Positions 8,642-21,758 are shown, counted from the stretch's first letter. The stretch is 21,758 nucleotides of DNA from a virus (IMGVR_UViG_3300028802_000062:1-21758), one strand, 5' to 3'. The notes: generated from the letters alone by a model not told the origin. A program made the numbers and translations.

Positions 8642-9030
8642 GGCTGGCCGCCGCGGGGGGGTTCTTCGTCGAGGCCGCCGGCTTCGAAGAGGCGGCGGGC
8701 TTCTTCTCCGAGCTGCAGCACGAGTTCAAGCAGGGGCTCCGCGAGCGGCTGAAGCAGGCCGCGACGCTGGTGACCGAGACGGCCCGCGAAGAGACCCACA
8801 GCGCCAGGGTCCGCGCGGCGATGGGTTTCAACGTCGAGGTCAACTCGCTCGTCGACTTCTCGGCGCGCATCGGACCGTCCCGACGGCGCGCCTGGTTCGC
8901 CCACTTCCTCGAGTTCGGGACGGTGCACAGCCGGGCCTTCCCGTTCCTCGCGCCCGCCCTGGCCGCCACCGAAGACCAGGTCGTCGAGATTGTCGGCATC
9001 CCACCCGTCCTGCAGCACGGAGGAAAGTGA
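8638..9030 (+). CDS. HK97-gp10-like neck/tail completion protein
   Basis: The 130-residue product shows the gp10-type pattern: an N-terminal helix (FKQGLRERLKQAATLVTETA), a central strand region, then FAHFLEFGTVHSRAFPFLAPAL, where the EFGT and FL-PAL motifs are characteristic. Proteins of this family join the neck to the tail. Most likely it starts at ATG 8638, which overlaps the previous stop as ATGA; the longer open frame upstream is a shadow of other genes. It ends in another overlap (TGATG) with the next gene. The order connector, gp10-like, then tail terminator is standard for siphoviruses. Confidence 0.8.
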   Translation: MRLAAAGGFFVEAAGFEEAAGFFSELQHEFKQGLRERLKQAATLVTETAREETHSARVRAAMGFNVEVNSLVDFSARIGPSRRRAWFAHFLEFGTVHSRAFPFLAPALAATEDQVVEIVGIPPVLQHGGK

Positions 9031-9509
9031 TGACAACCCCGACCCGACTGCGCCGTCTCTCCTCGGCCGCCCTGCTGCTCGCGCTCGCCATCCTGGCGGC
9101 GCCGCCGGCGACCGCCGCCGACTCGATCGTCCTGAAGGCCTCCGGCGCGCAGGTCGCGGCCGGGCAGGGGTCGCTGGCCGAGGTCGGCGGCTATCGCTTC
9201 ATCACCGTCCTGGTGAACGTCACCGCCGGGTCTGGGACGGTCAACCCGTTCGAGGTCTGGATCGAGGGGAGCGTCGACAACGGCACGAACTGGTATCAGC
9301 TGGCCTGCCAGAACGTGATGAAGGCGGGGGCCACGGCGCCGGGGACGGCCGCCGCCTCGCAGCGCGACATCGTCAACGAGGTCGCGGTCGTCACATCCGC
9401 GAAGTATGTCGCCACCTGCGAGGTCTACGTCAGCCAGGTGCGCGCCGCCTGGAATATCTCCGGGTCGACACCGAGCGAGACCTTCTCCGTCACCGCGGTC
9501 GTCAAGTAG
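9030..9509 (+). CDS. Small beta-sandwich protein with a Sec signal peptide
   Basis: The 159-residue product opens with a textbook Sec signal: basic RLRR, a hydrophobic core (AALLLALAILAA) and a PPATAA cleavage region before DS near residue 31. The mature part is beta-rich, with GGYRFITVLVNV, an IEGSVDNGTNW motif and a closing strand run near the end; this looks like an Ig-like or carbohydrate-binding fold and loosely resembles the protein at 4620-5048. It has two cysteines. ATG 9030 is preferred over GTG 9027 because GGAGG (9019-9023) is spaced six bases from it. It sits between the gp10-like and tail-terminator genes, where a virion gene is expected, so the signal peptide is unusual. Role unknown. 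Confidence 0.8.
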   Translation: MTTPTRLRRLSSAALLLALAILAAPPATAADSIVLKASGAQVAAGQGSLAEVGGYRFITVLVNVTAGSGTVNPFEVWIEGSVDNGTNWYQLACQNVMKAGATAPGTAAASQRDIVNEVAVVTSAKYVATCEVYVSQVRAAWNISGSTPSETFSVTAVVK

Positions 9510-14632: not shown

Positions 14633-15733
14633 GTGCAGGCGCCGTGGGTCTGGGCGTGGGACGACACGCCGAGCGACGTCTCGGGCGGGGCGAACTTCAC
14701 TAATCGCCTGCTCAGGTACGTCGAGGACACCGGCGAGATCGAGGTCGACATCCCATTCGACTCGATGGAGAGCGACTACTTCTTCAGCCCGGCCAACCAG
14801 CCCGGCTCGAGCGACTGGCCGGTGGGGAGCTGGACCGCGAAGGTCGACGTCACCGTCGCCAATCCGAAGATCAGCCTGGCCGTCGGGCTCGCCCGGGTCA
14901 CCGGTGCCGGGGTTCCGATCGAGGCCTACGCCGCCCTCACGGCGCCGCAGGTCCTCTCTTCGACCGGGATCCGCACCTTCAGCGGCACGACCCTGGCGCA
15001 GTCCGGGCCAACGACCGGGGACCGGCTGCGGGTCCTGTTCCAGTGGACGCGCGACAACTCGATCGGCGGCGGCGCCGGCGCCGGCAAAGTCCGCTTCGGC
15101 TTCGGCGACCCTCTCGTCGACACCCTGCAGGTGCCGATCCTGATGGCCAACCCTCGGATCACCTGGAACGGGAACAGCCTGGACTTCCCGGGGCCGTTGA
15201 CGGGGTACGCCGCCGATCCCGTGCGGGAGCGGACCATCGGGCGCAGCAACGGAGTGGTGCATGCCGTCAACCTGGCGGCGAGCTGGCGACGCCTGCGGGT
15301 GATGCTGAACAACTTCCAGGATGTCGCCTTCTGGGATGCGCTCGTCGCCTGGTGGGCCTGGGCGAGCGAGGGGAACCAGTACGCCTTCGCGCTCGACAGC
15401 GCCGACGTCGTCGACAAGACGATGACCGGGGGGGCCGCGGCGGCGCAGAAGGACATCCCGTTCACGGACACCAGCAGCATCGTCGCCGGCCGGAAGTACC
15501 TGGTACGCCAGGCGACCGGCCACCGGGAAGAGATCATCCAGGTCGACACGGTCACGCTGAACACGAAGGTGACCTGCCTCGCGAACCTGAAGTTCACCTA
15601 CGTGACCGGGGACATCTTCCGGAGCCGGGATTACTTCCCGAAGCTGGTCAGCCTGGACAGCGATCCGCCCTTCGAAGAGCGCGCCGGCATCACCTACCAG
15701 TTCGACCACTCCTGCGAGGAAGACCGGGCGTGA
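14633..15733 (+). CDS. Putative tail-tip protein (distal tail/baseplate type)
   Basis: A 366-residue beta-rich protein from GTG 14633. Residues 1 to about 165 form one beta domain, Ser/Gly-rich and aromatic at the start. From about 172 a second domain begins with NPRITWNGNSLDFPG, runs through a Trp-rich helix (FWDALVAWWAWASEGN) and ends in strands around YFPKLVSLD. A W-G-N-S-L-D-F-P strand followed by a helix and a barrel is what one sees in several distal-tail/baseplate ring proteins. The position after the tape measure supports this. It overlaps the next gene as GTGA. The class call is moderate; no exact family is recognised. Confidence 0.65.
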   Translation: MQAPWVWAWDDTPSDVSGGANFTNRLLRYVEDTGEIEVDIPFDSMESDYFFSPANQPGSSDWPVGSWTAKVDVTVANPKISLAVGLARVTGAGVPIEAYAALTAPQVLSSTGIRTFSGTTLAQSGPTTGDRLRVLFQWTRDNSIGGGAGAGKVRFGFGDPLVDTLQVPILMANPRITWNGNSLDFPGPLTGYAADPVRERTIGRSNGVVHAVNLAASWRRLRVMLNNFQDVAFWDALVAWWAWASEGNQYAFALDSADVVDKTMTGGAAAAQKDIPFTDTSSIVAGRKYLVRQATGHREEIIQVDTVTLNTKVTCLANLKFTYVTGDIFRSRDYFPKLVSLDSDPPFEERAGITYQFDHSCEEDRA

Positions 15734-17397
15734 CCTACAACCCGAACGCCACCTGGACCGCGCGCAAGGCCGAGCGCCAGCAGGCGCCCGTCTACTACGT
15801 GGCGATCGACGGGCTCACCACGAAGCACTTCTCGACCGCTCCGGTGAAGGCCGCCGCGGTCACGAAGAAGCCGCTGATGAAGCTGCCCACCGAGATCGGG
15901 CAGACGCTCAACCCGCTGCAGGGTAAGGCGACGCTCCGCATCAGCAACCTGCGCCTGGTGGACACGGCCGGGGAGATCACCGACCTGGTCTCCACCGAGA
16001 AGCCCTCGCCGACCCTGCCGACCCTCGTCAACCGGACGGTCACCCTCTACGAGGGGGACGCCGACATGAACGAGGTCGATTACGCGCCGGTGGCGATCGG
16101 GGACATCAGCGATGTCAGGCTCACCGAGGACCTGGTCACCTACGAGCTGACCCTCGTCGACGTGAAGCGGGCGCAGAACGAGGACCTCTTCACGAACGCC
16201 GATGCTTCCGGGCTGCAGCGCTACAGCGACTTCCTCTCGGTCGGGCCGAACGCCGGCGACAAGGCGGCGTCCGTCGTCAACGTCCCGGGCGTCCAGCAGG
16301 GCCAGCAGCTCTTCCTCGGGCCGTCGACGCATGGGTCCTATCCCGGCGGGGAGGAAAAGGTCGAGGTCGCGGCGGTCGTCGGGACGGTGATCTACTTCCG
16401 GAGCGCCCTGACTAAGAGCTACCTGGCCGGCGACCCCATCCGGTGGGCGACGACCATCCTCCAGGGCAACCCGATCAACATCATCCGGGCCTGCCTGACG
16501 GGGGACTTCGCGAATGGCAGCTTCCCCCTCGAGGTGGCCGTCGGGATGCCGACCGGCCTGGGCGTGCCCACGTCGCTGCTCAACGACACCTACCTGGCGC
16601 GGGAGCGGGACCGGATGATCCCGGAGCACACGATCCGCTTCGAGAGCCGGCAGCCGATCCGCGGGTTCCAGTTCCTCGAGCAGCGCCTGTATCGGTTCCG
16701 AGGCTACCCGTTCATGGACGGGGGCGGCAAGTTCGCCTTCCGCCTGTATCGGCCGGTCTACCCGGACGACGTGATCGCCGGGCTGCCGACGATCACCGAG
16801 GCCGACGTGGTCGCCTGGCGCTGGGAGCGTGGCTTCGACCTGCACGTCAACCGGGTCGAGCTGGGGTACGACTTCGATGCGGAGAGCGGCAACCCTGCGG
16901 ACACCGTCATCGTCCAGGACACCGCTGATCAGACGGCGACGAAGGAAACCGCGACGCTCGAGCTCGACGACACCGGCCTGCTGACGTCGGTGCGGGGCAT
17001 CCGAATCGGCGAGGTGCTGGGGGCCGGCCTCCTGCGGCGATACATCAAGCCGCCGCCGCTCCTTCGGATCACCCTGGGGGTCCACAAGAAGGCCCTCGAG
17101 ATCGGCGACGTCGTCCTGTTCACCCACAGCAAGGTGACGAACGTCCTTCTCGGCATCCGCGGGTTCGTCGCCTCCCGCCTCGAGGTCGTCGAGCGGGCCG
17201 AGCGTCCCGAGGCCGGGGAGATCGAGCTGAAGCTCCTCGACCCCGGCTTCACCCGGCCGGCCTGGATTGGGGCCTCGGGGGCGCTGCCCGGCTACGACGC
17301 CGCCAGCGCCGCCCAGCGTGAGTACGCGCACATCGGGCAGTCAGGCATCCCGGTCGGCAACTTCGGCGACGGGACATCCCCCTACGAGGTGCAGTGA
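15730..17397 (+). CDS. Putative tail hub/baseplate protein
   Basis: A 555-residue protein beginning at GTG 15730, which overlaps the previous stop as GTGA; the frame is open further upstream but that part is a shadow of the previous gene. It is strand-rich with LNPLQGKATLRISNLRLVDT (58-77), RTVTLYEGD, NPINIIRACL (about 247) and a C-terminal part with LEIGDVVLFTHSKV followed by LRGFVAS-like strands. By length and gene order (tape measure, distal tail, then this) it is most likely the hub or tail-associated protein that closes the tube. No catalytic peptidase or lysozyme motif was found. It ends with ATGA overlapping the next gene. Confidence 0.6.
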   Translation: MTYNPNATWTARKAERQQAPVYYVAIDGLTTKHFSTAPVKAAAVTKKPLMKLPTEIGQTLNPLQGKATLRISNLRLVDTAGEITDLVSTEKPSPTLPTLVNRTVTLYEGDADMNEVDYAPVAIGDISDVRLTEDLVTYELTLVDVKRAQNEDLFTNADASGLQRYSDFLSVGPNAGDKAASVVNVPGVQQGQQLFLGPSTHGSYPGGEEKVEVAAVVGTVIYFRSALTKSYLAGDPIRWATTILQGNPINIIRACLTGDFANGSFPLEVAVGMPTGLGVPTSLLNDTYLARERDRMIPEHTIRFESRQPIRGFQFLEQRLYRFRGYPFMDGGGKFAFRLYRPVYPDDVIAGLPTITEADVVAWRWERGFDLHVNRVELGYDFDAESGNPADTVIVQDTADQTATKETATLELDDTGLLTSVRGIRIGEVLGAGLLRRYIKPPPLLRITLGVHKKALEIGDVVLFTHSKVTNVLLGIRGFVASRLEVVERAERPEAGEIELKLLDPGFTRPAWIGASGALPGYDAASAAQREYAHIGQSGIPVGNFGDGTSPYEVQ

Positions 17398-18251
17398 TGG
17401 CGATCCCGGTGTTCACGCCCTTCGTCGACGCCCAGACCGCCTACAAGAGCCCGCTGGGTCAGGACTTCTTCCGGCAGATGCAGGACGACTTCAACAACCT
17501 GAACGGGCGGCTGTCGGCGCTCGAGAGCGCGATCGCGGTCTACGACCACTTCAACGATCAGATCCCGTTCTCAAACGACGGCGCCGAGATCCGCTACCCG
17601 TCGTTCGCGGTCGCCACTCCGTACGACCTCGCGGCTTCGCCGACGTTCCAGGTGTCGCTCTCCGGCAACTGGTTCGTCATGGCCGACACGGACGACACCA
17701 TCCGTGAAGGGGGCATGAACCTGCCGAAGCCGGCCTTCTCGGTCTCGCGGATCGGGGCGGCCAGCGGCGGGTCCTGGATGTCGCTGTTCTCGCGGCGTAA
17801 CGTCCTGTTCAACTCGATGACGCGGCCGATCACCTTGGCGGGCCGGTGGAAGCTGTCGGCCGACATCGCCACCAAGGTCGGGATGCGCGTCCTGCCAGCC
17901 GCCTCCGGCGTCGCGCCCGCCGATCCCTCAGTGACCGACTCGAAGGGCATCTGGCTCGAGCGCGTCGACGCGACGAACTGGCGCTTCGTCAGCTTCGACA
18001 GCTCGCGCAACAACGGGAGCTCGTTCGCCAAGCCCACGCCGGGGACCTGGTTCACCGTCTCGATCATCTTCACCGATGACCCGAGCAACCGGGCGCTCTG
18101 CTACGTGAACGGGGTCCTGAAGGAAACCTTCACGAGCAACCTGCCGACGGCCGACGCGCTGCACTTCTACTTCGGCCACGCCGCCACCGGCGGAAGCATG
18201 GACATCGACATCGCCGGCCTGCGCGCCGAGGGAATCGCGGACGCCGCATGA
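17397..18251 (+). CDS. Tail adhesin with N-terminal coiled coil and LamG-like domain
   Basis: The 284-residue product has a helical N-terminus (QDFFRQMQDDFNNLNGRLSA, about 23-42), likely a trimer coiled coil for attachment to the tail, then a beta sandwich (about 50-280). The latter shows DHFNDQIPFSND, LAGRWKLSADI, TWFTVSIIF and the CYVNGVLKETF hairpin typical of LamG/concanavalin-A-like jelly rolls, which often bind glycans. There is no signal peptide. ATG 17397 overlaps the previous stop; the GTG at 17394 is the alternative. As part of the terminal adhesin cluster it probably helps bind the host surface. Glycan binding is inferred from the fold. Confidence 0.7.
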   Translation: MAIPVFTPFVDAQTAYKSPLGQDFFRQMQDDFNNLNGRLSALESAIAVYDHFNDQIPFSNDGAEIRYPSFAVATPYDLAASPTFQVSLSGNWFVMADTDDTIREGGMNLPKPAFSVSRIGAASGGSWMSLFSRRNVLFNSMTRPITLAGRWKLSADIATKVGMRVLPAASGVAPADPSVTDSKGIWLERVDATNWRFVSFDSSRNNGSSFAKPTPGTWFTVSIIFTDDPSNRALCYVNGVLKETFTSNLPTADALHFYFGHAATGGSMDIDIAGLRAEGIADAA

Positions 18252-18262
18252 GGGGGACTCCG

Positions 18263-20581
18263 ATGAAAAAGGGGCTGGCCTGGCTGCTCGGGATCGTCGC
18301 GGTGCTCGTGCTGACGGCGCCGCTGTTCTCGCAGTCAGCTCCAAACACCATCTCGCCGGCGAAGCTGCAGGGGCTGTCGTGGGTGTTCTCGGTCCTGCAG
18401 ACGTTCAGCGCCGGGATCAATACCCATGCCGTCCTGGACTCCAATTCGACTGGCGGGCCGATCACCACCCTGAGCGGTTCCACGCCGCTGGTGTCCGGGG
18501 CCTCGGGCACCGTTCCACTCGCGCAGACTCAGATCAACTACACGATGGCGGACCCGACGACGGCCGTGACCGTTGGGGTCGCCTTCAGCGCCGCGTCCTG
18601 CAATCAGGCCAACCACAACCGCTTCTATGCCTATTACACGAACCGAGGTGGGTCGACCAGCCTGAGCCCGGCGACAGCCGATCAGTTCGGAGCATGGAGC
18701 GGCAGCAAGATCGTCCCGCTTACGAGGCCGTCCGACTTCCCGCCGACCGCCGAATACTGGACGCCGGCATACTCGTCAGACAACGGCACGACCGTGAAGC
18801 GGTGCGCGACGTCTGGGTTCTACACGGCGATCGGCACCGCGACCGTCAACTGCACCTGCGCAGCCGCGGGGTCGACGATCACTGGTCAGGCGAACTCGAC
18901 CGGCACGCGCACCATCTTTCAGATCATGGACGGGGAAGTACGCTTCCCGTCCTACACCTCGGGCACGCCGTTCAGCCTCACCGAGGGCGCGCGCCGCCTT
19001 GGCTTCGGGCTCGGATATCTGACGTTCTCGCCCGACTCCGGCACGACGTTTTCTGATGCGCTCACCACGAACGGCCAGAGTCGCCTCGTCTGCCCGACCT
19101 GCCGCTATGCCACGGCGGACGCCGCGATCGCCTCCTACAGCGATCAGGCGGTCTCGAAGCCCTACACGATCTACCTACTTCCGGCCACCTACGGCGACAT
19201 CTCCCTGGGCAAGTCATACACCAAGGTCGTCGGCCTCGGGATGGCCGGCTCGGTGATCATCAACGGGACGCTGACCATCGGTGGCGACGTAACCGAGTCG
19301 GGCATCTCCAACCTCAAGTTCATCGGGGCGACGACGGCCCCGATCCGGGGCAGCACCAATACCGTTCCGACGACCTTCTACCTGACCAACAACGACATCG
19401 GCAGCCTCGCATCCTCGACGTGCACGATCGACGTGCTGCACGAGCTGGGCGGGTACAGTGGGCGCATCTGGCTCTCGGGCGGTAACCGGTGGCTGACCTG
19501 CTGGGACGGGATCTTCATCGCCGAGGACGCCCGATTTATTTCCTCTGGCGACACGTTCATCGGGGACAACACCAACGTCGGCACGGCCAACCAGCAGATC
19601 ACCATCTTCAACACCCTGAGCGATACGGCCGAGTACGACATCTCCGGGGCGAGCATTTGGGTGCGGCAGACGCAGTCCGGCTCCGTGGCAAACGGCTGGG
19701 TCTACAACTCCCTCGGGGCGACGAACAATGGGACGATCCCGCCGCGGGTCGCCATCGCCGGCAGCCGCATCTACATGCAGTCGACCAACGCGTCGGCTAG
19801 CGGCACGCTCGGGGTCATAAACCTCGGCAGTGCCGGCACGACGACGATCAAGCCGCAGCTCACCCTGACGGGGACGGACGTCGACCTGGTCGCTTCGGGG
19901 TCGAGCGAGAAGCTGGTGGCGATCAAGGTTGCCGCCGCCTCCAACCATGCCGGCTGGAACGTCTCGGTCAACGGCGGCGGCATCCGCCGCTCTGGCGGCG
20001 ACACCGCGAACAGCTACGACGTCGACACGGCCGAGACGGCCAGCGGGTTCTCGGTCGATCTCTACGGCGTCCGGCATGAGGGGAAATACTCGGCCGCCGG
20101 CGGGACGCTGCGCGCCTTCGTCCCGATGCCGAATGGCTCGTCGCCGACGATCGACACGCTGGGCCAGGCCGCTGTCGACACCACCGCGAACCAGCTCCTC
20201 TACTACAGCGGCGGCGCCGCGCGCGTCCTGGACCCGGTGCTGCAGGAGTGCCGCGTCATCTCCGACGTGACGTCGGCCGACGACAACTTCGAGTGGTGGA
20301 TGGCGACCACCCCGGTCACGGTCACTTCGGTGTGGTGCCGATGCCGTGGAACCTGCTCGACGATGGCGACCTTCACGCTCGAAGACCGCGCCGGCAACGG
20401 GATGACGATCACCGGGACGAACCCGACCTGCGCCACGACCGGCAATTCCACCCCGGCGGCGGTGACGGCCAACAACGGGCTGGTCGCCGGCGAGGGGCTC
20501 GCCTTCGACGTCACGAACACGCCGAACCCGGCGACGGACGAGTACACCCTATGCGTCACCTACACCATCGACCGTCAGTAA
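18263..20581 (+). CDS. Beta-helix tailspike-like protein with a Sec signal peptide
   Basis: A 772-residue protein. The N-terminus MKKGLAWLLGIVAVLVLTA followed by PLFSQS-A is a clear Sec signal with cleavage near residue 24. Next comes a Thr/Ser/Gly-rich region, then from about 272 VCPTC and YATADAAIASYSDQ with YTIYLLPATYGD, the usual entry to a right-handed parallel beta-helix (about 280-590). A C-terminal beta domain (about 656-772) includes CRCRGTC. About 14 cysteines are present, unlike the other virion proteins. ATG 18263 is chosen since GGGGG (18252-18256) lies six bases upstream; ATG 18248 lacks an SD. It is likely a host-surface glycan-binding or cutting spike. Why it has a signal is unclear. 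Confidence 0.75.
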   Translation: MKKGLAWLLGIVAVLVLTAPLFSQSAPNTISPAKLQGLSWVFSVLQTFSAGINTHAVLDSNSTGGPITTLSGSTPLVSGASGTVPLAQTQINYTMADPTTAVTVGVAFSAASCNQANHNRFYAYYTNRGGSTSLSPATADQFGAWSGSKIVPLTRPSDFPPTAEYWTPAYSSDNGTTVKRCATSGFYTAIGTATVNCTCAAAGSTITGQANSTGTRTIFQIMDGEVRFPSYTSGTPFSLTEGARRLGFGLGYLTFSPDSGTTFSDALTTNGQSRLVCPTCRYATADAAIASYSDQAVSKPYTIYLLPATYGDISLGKSYTKVVGLGMAGSVIINGTLTIGGDVTESGISNLKFIGATTAPIRGSTNTVPTTFYLTNNDIGSLASSTCTIDVLHELGGYSGRIWLSGGNRWLTCWDGIFIAEDARFISSGDTFIGDNTNVGTANQQITIFNTLSDTAEYDISGASIWVRQTQSGSVANGWVYNSLGATNNGTIPPRVAIAGSRIYMQSTNASASGTLGVINLGSAGTTTIKPQLTLTGTDVDLVASGSSEKLVAIKVAAASNHAGWNVSVNGGGIRRSGGDTANSYDVDTAETASGFSVDLYGVRHEGKYSAAGGTLRAFVPMPNGSSPTIDTLGQAAVDTTANQLLYYSGGAARVLDPVLQECRVISDVTSADDNFEWWMATTPVTVTSVWCRCRGTCSTMATFTLEDRAGNGMTITGTNPTCATTGNSTPAAVTANNGLVAGEGLAFDVTNTPNPATDEYTLCVTYTIDRQ

Positions 20582-21758
20582 GGCGCGCGGTCGCCTGGGC
20601 GCTGCTCGCGCTGATGGCGAGCCCGGCGCTGGCCGGCGGGACCTACTACTTCTCCGACTGCACGGCCGCGTGGGTCAGCGGCTACCCGGGTGAGGGCACC
20701 GGGCTCACGCTCGCGGAGTCGGTAGGTTCCGCATGCACCATTGTCCACAATGGGCACGGCGGCGACGGCTGGTACGGCTGCATCGACCACACGGCGGCGC
20801 AAGGGTCTAATCTTAACCCGTGGTGTCTTGACCCTCACAACCTCGGCATCCGTAATTCCTTCGAACAGATGGAGGACGGCGGCGGCGACGACCTTCAGCC
20901 GGGCGATACCGCTGTGCTCTGCTCTGGGACGTGCGCCGCCTTCCCGCCGTGCATCATCCCGATCGACGGCGGCTATGCTCCGTATCCCTACTGCGTCAGC
21001 ACTTCGATCTGGCCGCTTCAGGGGCACACCTGCCCGAGCGGCGCGGCGTGGTACGGGTCGCCGTGCATCCTCGACGCCAACGGCGGCGGGACGTCTGGAT
21101 TCCCGATCACCATCAAGGCGTTCTCCGGCCAGCACGACATCCGCATCACCGGCGACACCAACGGCAACGGGCTGTTCGACGTCGGGGAGCCGGCGTCCTT
21201 CTTCAACAACCGCGAGGCCACCGGCGGCTCGAAGGACGGCAAGGGGTGGTGGACGTTCGAGGGATTCACCATCGAGAAGTTCGCCGGCAACACCTTCTAC
21301 ATGGTGCAGAACGTCGACTCGACCACCACGCTCAAGAGCATGACGCTGCGCTATCTCGGCGCCGGGAAGGTCGGCCAGTGCTCCGACCTCGGCAACGAGA
21401 ACACCTGCGCCAGCGTGGACGTGAACGGGCTCCCGCTTCCGGCCTTCTACGGTCAGACCGGCGCCGCGAACACGGTCGGGATGTACGACGTCGGGTGCGA
21501 CGCCACGAATCAGAAGACATTTCAGGAGCCGCGGACCTTCTTCACCTGGGGCGGTAACGACGGATCGACGTTCGTGCTGCGGGACAGCACGCTCTATCAG
21601 TCCTGCGCGCTGGTCATGCGCGCGAACGGCAACTGCTTCAACAACCCCGGGAGCGCCAGCGCGCAACTCTGCGAGGCCGGCGGCGCGCAGCAGTTCATCC
21701 ACAACCTGATCTATAGCGTGAACGGCCTCGGGAACGGGCACCAGAACTCCAACGTCCT
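20551..21758 (+). CDS. Secreted cysteine-rich beta-helix-like protein, cut by the window end
   Basis: This frame runs open for 402 codons to the window end without a stop. ATG 20551 opens a signal peptide: MRHLHHRPSVRRAVAWALLA, then LMASPALA-GG cleavage near residue 28. The mature part holds about 16 cysteines (SDC, YGC, PWC, VLC, GTC, PPC and others), a DTNGNGLFDVGE loop (about 201-212) that fits an EF-hand-like calcium site, and repeating strands such as WWTFEGFTIEKFAGNTFYMV, consistent with a parallel beta-helix. It overlaps the previous gene by 31 bases in another frame; GGACGAG lies upstream. Likely an adhesin or a second spike, but it may equally be a host-type secreted protein. Its full length is unknown. 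Confidence 0.75.
   Translation, partial: MRHLHHRPSVRRAVAWALLALMASPALAGGTYYFSDCTAAWVSGYPGEGTGLTLAESVGSACTIVHNGHGGDGWYGCIDHTAAQGSNLNPWCLDPHNLGIRNSFEQMEDGGGDDLQPGDTAVLCSGTCAAFPPCIIPIDGGYAPYPYCVSTSIWPLQGHTCPSGAAWYGSPCILDANGGGTSGFPITIKAFSGQHDIRITGDTNGNGLFDVGEPASFFNNREATGGSKDGKGWWTFEGFTIEKFAGNTFYMVQNVDSTTTLKSMTLRYLGAGKVGQCSDLGNENTCASVDVNGLPLPAFYGQTGAANTVGMYDVGCDATNQKTFQEPRTFFTWGGNDGSTFVLRDSTLYQSCALVMRANGNCFNNPGSASAQLCEAGGAQQFIHNLIYSVNGLGNGHQNSNV

Follow-up and report, generated by a model that had tools for sequence, protein, structure and literature searches.

We lean towards the view that two neighbouring genes of a siphovirus-like phage, P0001 and P0002, encode resident phage proteins that are exported late in infection through the Sec route, disulfide-bonded outside the cytoplasm and used as extracellular, glycan-facing adhesins or spikes. 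Both combine a predicted Sec signal peptide with many cysteines, and a third signal-bearing gene, g9030, makes the feature wider than the two genes singled out in the initial annotation. The window, meaning the whole stretch of DNA analysed, is a 21,758-base viral record in which genes for terminase, portal, prohead protease, HK97-type capsid, head-tail adaptor, tail terminator, tail tube and tape measure are followed by tail-tip genes and a LamG protein, P0003 (Table 1). The P0003 match to PF13385 (E=2e-4) falls short of the Pfam cut-off; its homologues in the related contigs L005, L002 and L003 are 83%, 41% and 31% identical. The lineage is a family of soil phages. Among annotated phages there is no close relative of the window phage and no significant homologue of P0001, P0002, g9030 or a conserved tail protein of the lineage, and the portal and capsid are less than 40% identical to annotated phages among the matches listed. 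Scanning public bacterial genomes with the conserved tail protein and g9030 as queries returned no bacterial relative.

Table 1. Positions of the genes and predicted protein features in the window
Feature	Coordinates	Strand	Remarks
g9030, third putatively exported protein	9030..9509	+	159 aa, 2 Cys
g9030 predicted signal peptide	9030..9116	+	A-T-A↓A
P0003, LamG/concanavalin-like tail adhesin gene	17397..18251	+	adjoins P0001 upstream; no signal by the signal rule; 1 Cys
P0001, putatively exported adhesin-like protein	18263..20581	+	772 aa, 14 Cys
P0001 predicted signal peptide	18263..18337	+	predicted cleavage near residues 23-25 (PLFS↓Q or SQS↓A); kept in six homologues
Stalk motif TIsPAkLQGlsWvySvLQtFsAGi	18347..18415	+	directly after the signal; best conserved stretch, bodies otherwise divergent
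Four-Cys domain	18599..18859	+	invariant C113, C181, C197 and C199 in the six-sequence alignment; strands predicted in the model
Possible right-handed parallel beta-helix body	19091..20092	+	residues about 277-610; C277/C280 and C387/C413; low-confidence model
C-terminal cysteine-rich domain	20240..20578	+	most relatives have another small Cys module here instead
P0002, second putatively exported cysteine-rich protein	20551..21758	+	incomplete at window end; 402 aa visible, 16 Cys
P0002 predicted signal peptide	20551..20634	+	predicted cleavage ALA↓GG

Signal peptides and start codons

Signal peptides were called with a home-made heuristic rule, not SignalP, that looks for a positive start, a hydrophobic core and a -3/-1 site. 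This rule was positive for 3 of the 18 window genes, namely P0001, P0002 and g9030. When the head-tail or structural-region genes of control phages were treated in the same way, none of 23 was flagged in Chymera, none of 22 in SfV and one of 24 in lambda (1/69 overall), the single gene being Lom, a known exported outer-membrane protein. Six of 23 genes were flagged in a stretch of the E. coli genome: TolB, Pal, CpoB, YbgS, ModA and the membrane-anchored TolA. The two strong Sec signals of the initial annotation were thus recovered by a heuristic that set them clearly apart from the control phages, and the positive n-region, hydrophobic h-region and -3/-1 site that it finds in P0001, P0002 and g9030 are conserved in their homologues.

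The P0001 N-terminus reads MKKGLAWLLGIVAVLVLTAPLFSQSAPN, and its ATG at 18263 directly follows AGGGGG. A wrong start codon was ruled out for P0001 by this Shine-Dalgarno-like sequence, by conservation of the stalk from residue 29 and by the position of the next Met, at residue 95. P0002 begins at the ATG at 20551 with MRHLHHRPSVRRAVAWALLALMASPALA, followed by GG at the predicted cleavage site, and shares 31 nt with the 3' end of P0001. An alternative P0002 start at ATG 20614 would remove the signal and is disfavoured, as the homologue in the related genome G010 is also signal-bearing; Tat export, considered for the RR at residues 11-12 of P0002, is disfavoured by a homologue that has no RR. 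Cleavage is predicted less cleanly for the adhesins than for g9030, at sites that vary among homologues, so some adhesins could stay membrane-anchored.

Relatives, cysteines and architecture

Relatives were reached by searching with the conserved neighbouring tail protein and then inspecting its neighbours (L002, L005 and the distant L003), and further ones, including G004, G006 and G010, were reached through g9030; querying viral contigs with P0001, P0002 or the L005 adhesin singly gave nothing new. Homologues of P0001 in L002 (52% identity), G004 (58%), L005 (28-29%), G010 (27%) and G006 (29%) are all located 3' of the conserved tail protein and all bear a signal, with the LamG-like gene also upstream where it is recognisable. 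The L003 gene is incomplete at the contig end, and its visible N-terminus has a signal and a stalk-like motif; counting this partial sequence, the signal is kept in all six P0001 homologues found. The arrangement that the initial annotation proposed to look for in related phages is therefore present at the same place in six, and homologues without the hydrophobic N-terminus, which would have spoken against its reading, were seen neither among these six nor in the one P0002 homologue. Directly 5' of the signal-bearing gene in L003 is an ordinary tail-fibre-like gene (L003:12453-14249, 598 aa, no signal).

The P0002 homologue, from G010 (L031:2709-4844, minus strand), has 712 aa, 34 Cys and a signal, is 29% identical to P0002 and lies 3' of the P0001 homologue. 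At the corresponding position G006 has a different signal-bearing protein with 31 Cys (L030:4154-6820), whose C-terminal end matches a module of extracellular proteins, the thrombospondin type 3 repeat, with an E-value (PF02412, E=6e-5) that falls short of the cut-off. This repeat resembles a cohesion protein of myxobacteria (NCBIfam, far short of the cut-off), which may be a faint hint of a diderm host. G006 also has a short form of P0001 without the helix body.

Small genes were also observed near the adhesin and lysis genes of the relatives. A protein of about 105 aa with a hydrophobic start and conserved Cys is encoded 3' of the adhesin genes in L002, L005, G004 and G006 (L002:13348-13686, L005:14491-14811, L028:14486-14812 on the minus strand and L030:6817-7131); the signal rule accepts the L002 and L005 members and rejects those of G004 and G006, and the members scanned had no family match. 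Close to holin-like genes, small proteins at L030:9431-9769, L005:16858-17283 and in L028 (minus strand) have a WCRxxYxC-like motif after a hydrophobic start and are possibly a unimolecular spanin or another envelope protein. Integrase-like genes lie 3' of the lysis genes in L005 (17549-18412), L028 and L030, and because such genes occur in three relatives (Pfam-confirmed in L005, by sequence in G004 and G006), the lineage may be temperate.

Between the window and L005, the capsid is 94%, the tube 91% and the LamG protein 83% identical, whereas P0001 is only 28-29% identical, and since it diverges while these proteins stay similar, P0001 appears to behave like a specificity factor. Its best conserved part is the stalk; of the 24 columns that are invariant across six aligned sequences, eight (T29, L35, Q36, W40, S43, Q46, F48 and G51) fall in this motif. 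By its sequence pattern, the four-Cys domain downstream looks like a fibronectin-III-like sandwich. Both proteins had been described as beta-helices, and for P0001 this is plausible but weak: the model, with a mean pLDDT of 44, shows numerous short strands at about 300-605, and the best Foldseek matches in the PDB are mostly right-handed beta-helices, with low TM-scores and a best E of 0.012, none being significant. These weak matches include polygalacturonase, PL6 lyases, pectin methylesterases and tailspikes. For P0002 no usable structure model was obtained, and a beta-helix is suggested by its sequence pattern. No family match for either protein was found in Pfam, PHROG, NCBIfam, PDB sequences or annotated phages, and the same searches gave no homology to known tailspike families; the label adhesin is thus a tentative one, drawn from weak models and sequence patterns.

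The cysteine counts given in the initial annotation proved exact (14 in P0001, 16 in the 402 visible residues of P0002, none in the tape measure and one each in the capsid and tail tube). Cysteines make up 2.56% of the exported window proteins vs 0.63% of the products of the other window genes, about four times as much (Fisher p = 5e-8), and the enrichment is in the same direction in L002 (p = 5e-5) and L005 (p = 2e-8). In five relatives, 11/11, 8/10, 11/11, 9/11 and 4/6 of the aligned P0001 cysteines are kept, vs fractions of 0.51, 0.28, 0.57, 0.26 and 0.29 for its non-Cys residues. This is consistent with disulfides and supports them short of proof, because cysteines in general are often conserved above average; the conserved CxC and CxxC motifs could instead bind metal. 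The cysteines are enriched, conserved and tied to export, as would be expected of disulfide-bonded extracellular proteins, with the joint absence of signal and cysteines in the g9030 family being one case only. Comparison with homologues thus lends good support to the original suggestion of export plus disulfide bonding.

The g9030 family

The third signal-bearing gene lies between a gp10-like tail-completion gene and the tail terminator gene, and its relatives were found at eleven loci (L011-L021), some of which are the same contigs as L002 and L005. In all loci checked it is flanked by the adaptor gene upstream and the tail terminator downstream; L003 lacks the gene. All ten signal-bearing phages, the window included, have A-x-A at one alignment column and exactly two Cys in the mature part. 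In the eight signal-bearing rows that remain when near-copies are left out, the signals are 36% identical vs 64% for the mature part, which suggests that the hydrophobic character is kept while the letters change. The syntenic orthologue L021:4476-4865 has no signal and neither Cys and starts with a Met near the cleavage column; the roughly 12 nt between its ATG and the upstream gene leave no room for a hidden signal. As this is one orthologue, the joint absence of the signal and both Cys is suggestive and not conclusive.

In each of the seven more distant relatives, identity is higher for g9030 than for the major capsid protein (55-68% vs 42-54%), which suggests that g9030 has a constrained function and is not a dispensable moron. 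The protein is small and probably beta-rich and has no firm family match; like a decoration protein, it is encoded in the head-tail block and conserved with the capsid lineage.

Interpretation and known systems

In the explanation that we favour, the host Sec machinery would export P0001 and P0002 late in infection, the signals would be cleaved after export, and disulfides would form outside the cytoplasm as the proteins are oxidised in the envelope. Released at lysis with the progeny, the proteins would then act as extracellular, disulfide-stabilised adhesins or spikes. The P0001 body changes quickly, and is sometimes replaced, behind the conserved stalk and the four-cysteine sandwich-like domain. 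Sec export followed by oxidative folding would explain why signal and cysteines occur together. Export may be a programme in these phages, since the conserved g9030 of the head-tail block would take the same route and the signal-less orthologue lacks its two Cys. We infer late expression because the exported genes are tightly packed with, or overlap, adjacent genes and the plus strand between 15000 and 21758 showed nothing resembling a promoter or terminator (the promoter scan covering sigma-70-type promoters), and we likewise infer cleavage, disulfides and extracellular adhesion.

A narrower form of this explanation, in which the proteins complete their maturation in the periplasm and then attach from outside to the tail or capsid of assembled particles during or after lysis, is a tentative possibility. 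The genes sit in the structural operon, P0001 resembles tail spikes in its conserved stalk and exchangeable bodies, and g9030, with its signal-less syntenic orthologue and its conservation above that of the capsid, belongs to the head-tail block. P22 tailspikes join heads in vitro. Late joining is also feasible for decoration proteins: in vitro, phage L Dec attaches to P22 capsids that are already mature (PMC7602432). However, the papers searched, which leave out most of the subscription literature, contain neither a tailed phage with such assembly nor a precedent for exported tail proteins, and the virion may already have its adhesin, because LamG is unsignalled and L003 has an ordinary tail-fibre-like gene. 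It is somewhat less likely again that the lineage as a whole routes virion parts through the periplasm, with adhesins and the head-tail-block protein alike exported, disulfide-bonded and fitted to particles at or after lysis; if true, phage assembly would be finished outside the cell. We regard as similarly doubtful the idea that the proteins are free secreted enzymes that degrade polysaccharide and so remove capsule or biofilm in the surroundings of the lysing cell. The weak Foldseek matches to the enzymes and tailspikes named above fit such a role, as does WceF of Pantoea, a bacterial enzyme that is exported and has the fold of a tailspike (PMC7949094), but no structural or family match is significant, the short form in G006 dispenses with the helix body, and the aligned adhesins share no invariant acidic residue, a weak argument with one row being short.

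It seems unlikely that the proteins are envelope or surface factors of the infected cell or lysogen that, in the manner of lambda Lom or T5 Llp, mask receptors, exclude superinfecting phages or bring about lysogenic conversion. Lom is encoded at the equivalent position, following the gene for the central tail fibre, and was the only signal-positive gene of the control phages, and the integrase-like genes of L005, G004 and G006 would suit lysogeny; yet the genes here overlap and have no promoter- or terminator-like site on their strand, unlike self-transcribed morons, no lipobox anchor was seen, and g9030 is constrained as much as structural genes or more. That the hydrophobic N-terminus is an uncleaved anchor or a virion-attachment segment of proteins that are not secreted is improbable: the imperfect cleavage motifs of some adhesins would fit, but all homologues have signal-like n-, h- and c-regions, A-x-A sites run throughout the g9030 signals, and the cysteine enrichment would be left unexplained. 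Recent capture of host genes, an option raised in the initial annotation, is highly improbable, for although annotated phages have no significant homologue, six related phages carry the genes in an unchanged position with diverged sequences, and the GC content of the genes is near that of the window.

Export late in infection thus remains our preferred explanation, and the comparisons point to a set of late proteins, shared across the lineage, that are exported and carry cysteines, one of them from the head-tail block, in genomes that are few and related. To our knowledge, the accepted view is that tailed-phage particles are assembled entirely within the reducing cytoplasm. Consistent signals and conserved Cys on the most variable adhesins and on a conserved head-tail-block protein would either break this rule or reveal a dedicated late set of extracellular proteins, and the g9030 family, with members that have a signal and two Cys or neither, is a natural comparison through which a small protein can put the question to the test.

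Lom and other exported morons share with P0001 and P0002 a Sec signal and a gene position directly after the tail adhesin genes; however, Lom is a small outer-membrane barrel, whereas the window proteins are not, and their several genes are packed in the late operon, where the scan of the plus strand from 15000 to 21758 found neither a sigma-70-type promoter nor a terminator-like site. Pantoea stewartii WceF, exported via a Tat signal (PMC7949094), is alike in combining export with a tailspike-like fold but belongs to a bacterial biofilm operon, and the text of that paper mentions neither disulfide nor cysteine. The Sec-exported endolysins Lys44 of fOg44 and P1 Lyz, the latter with disulfide chemistry, are phage late proteins (PMC6116005) that take the same host route, but they serve in lysis and are neither adhesins nor products of the head-tail block. 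The capsid decoration proteins Hoc, Dec and pb10 are comparable with g9030, which is small and probably rich in beta structure and has its gene in the head-tail block; unlike them, it has an export signal, two cysteines and no firm family match. The right-handed beta-helix tailspikes and depolymerases of P22, HK620, Sf6 and CBA120 have no significant sequence or structure match to P0001, and the P0001 family differs from them in its export signal, its 12-15 Cys in the long forms and its Cys-bearing sandwich-like domain, but is like them in the possible beta-helix body, the conserved N-terminal part, the exchangeable body and the place near the tail genes.
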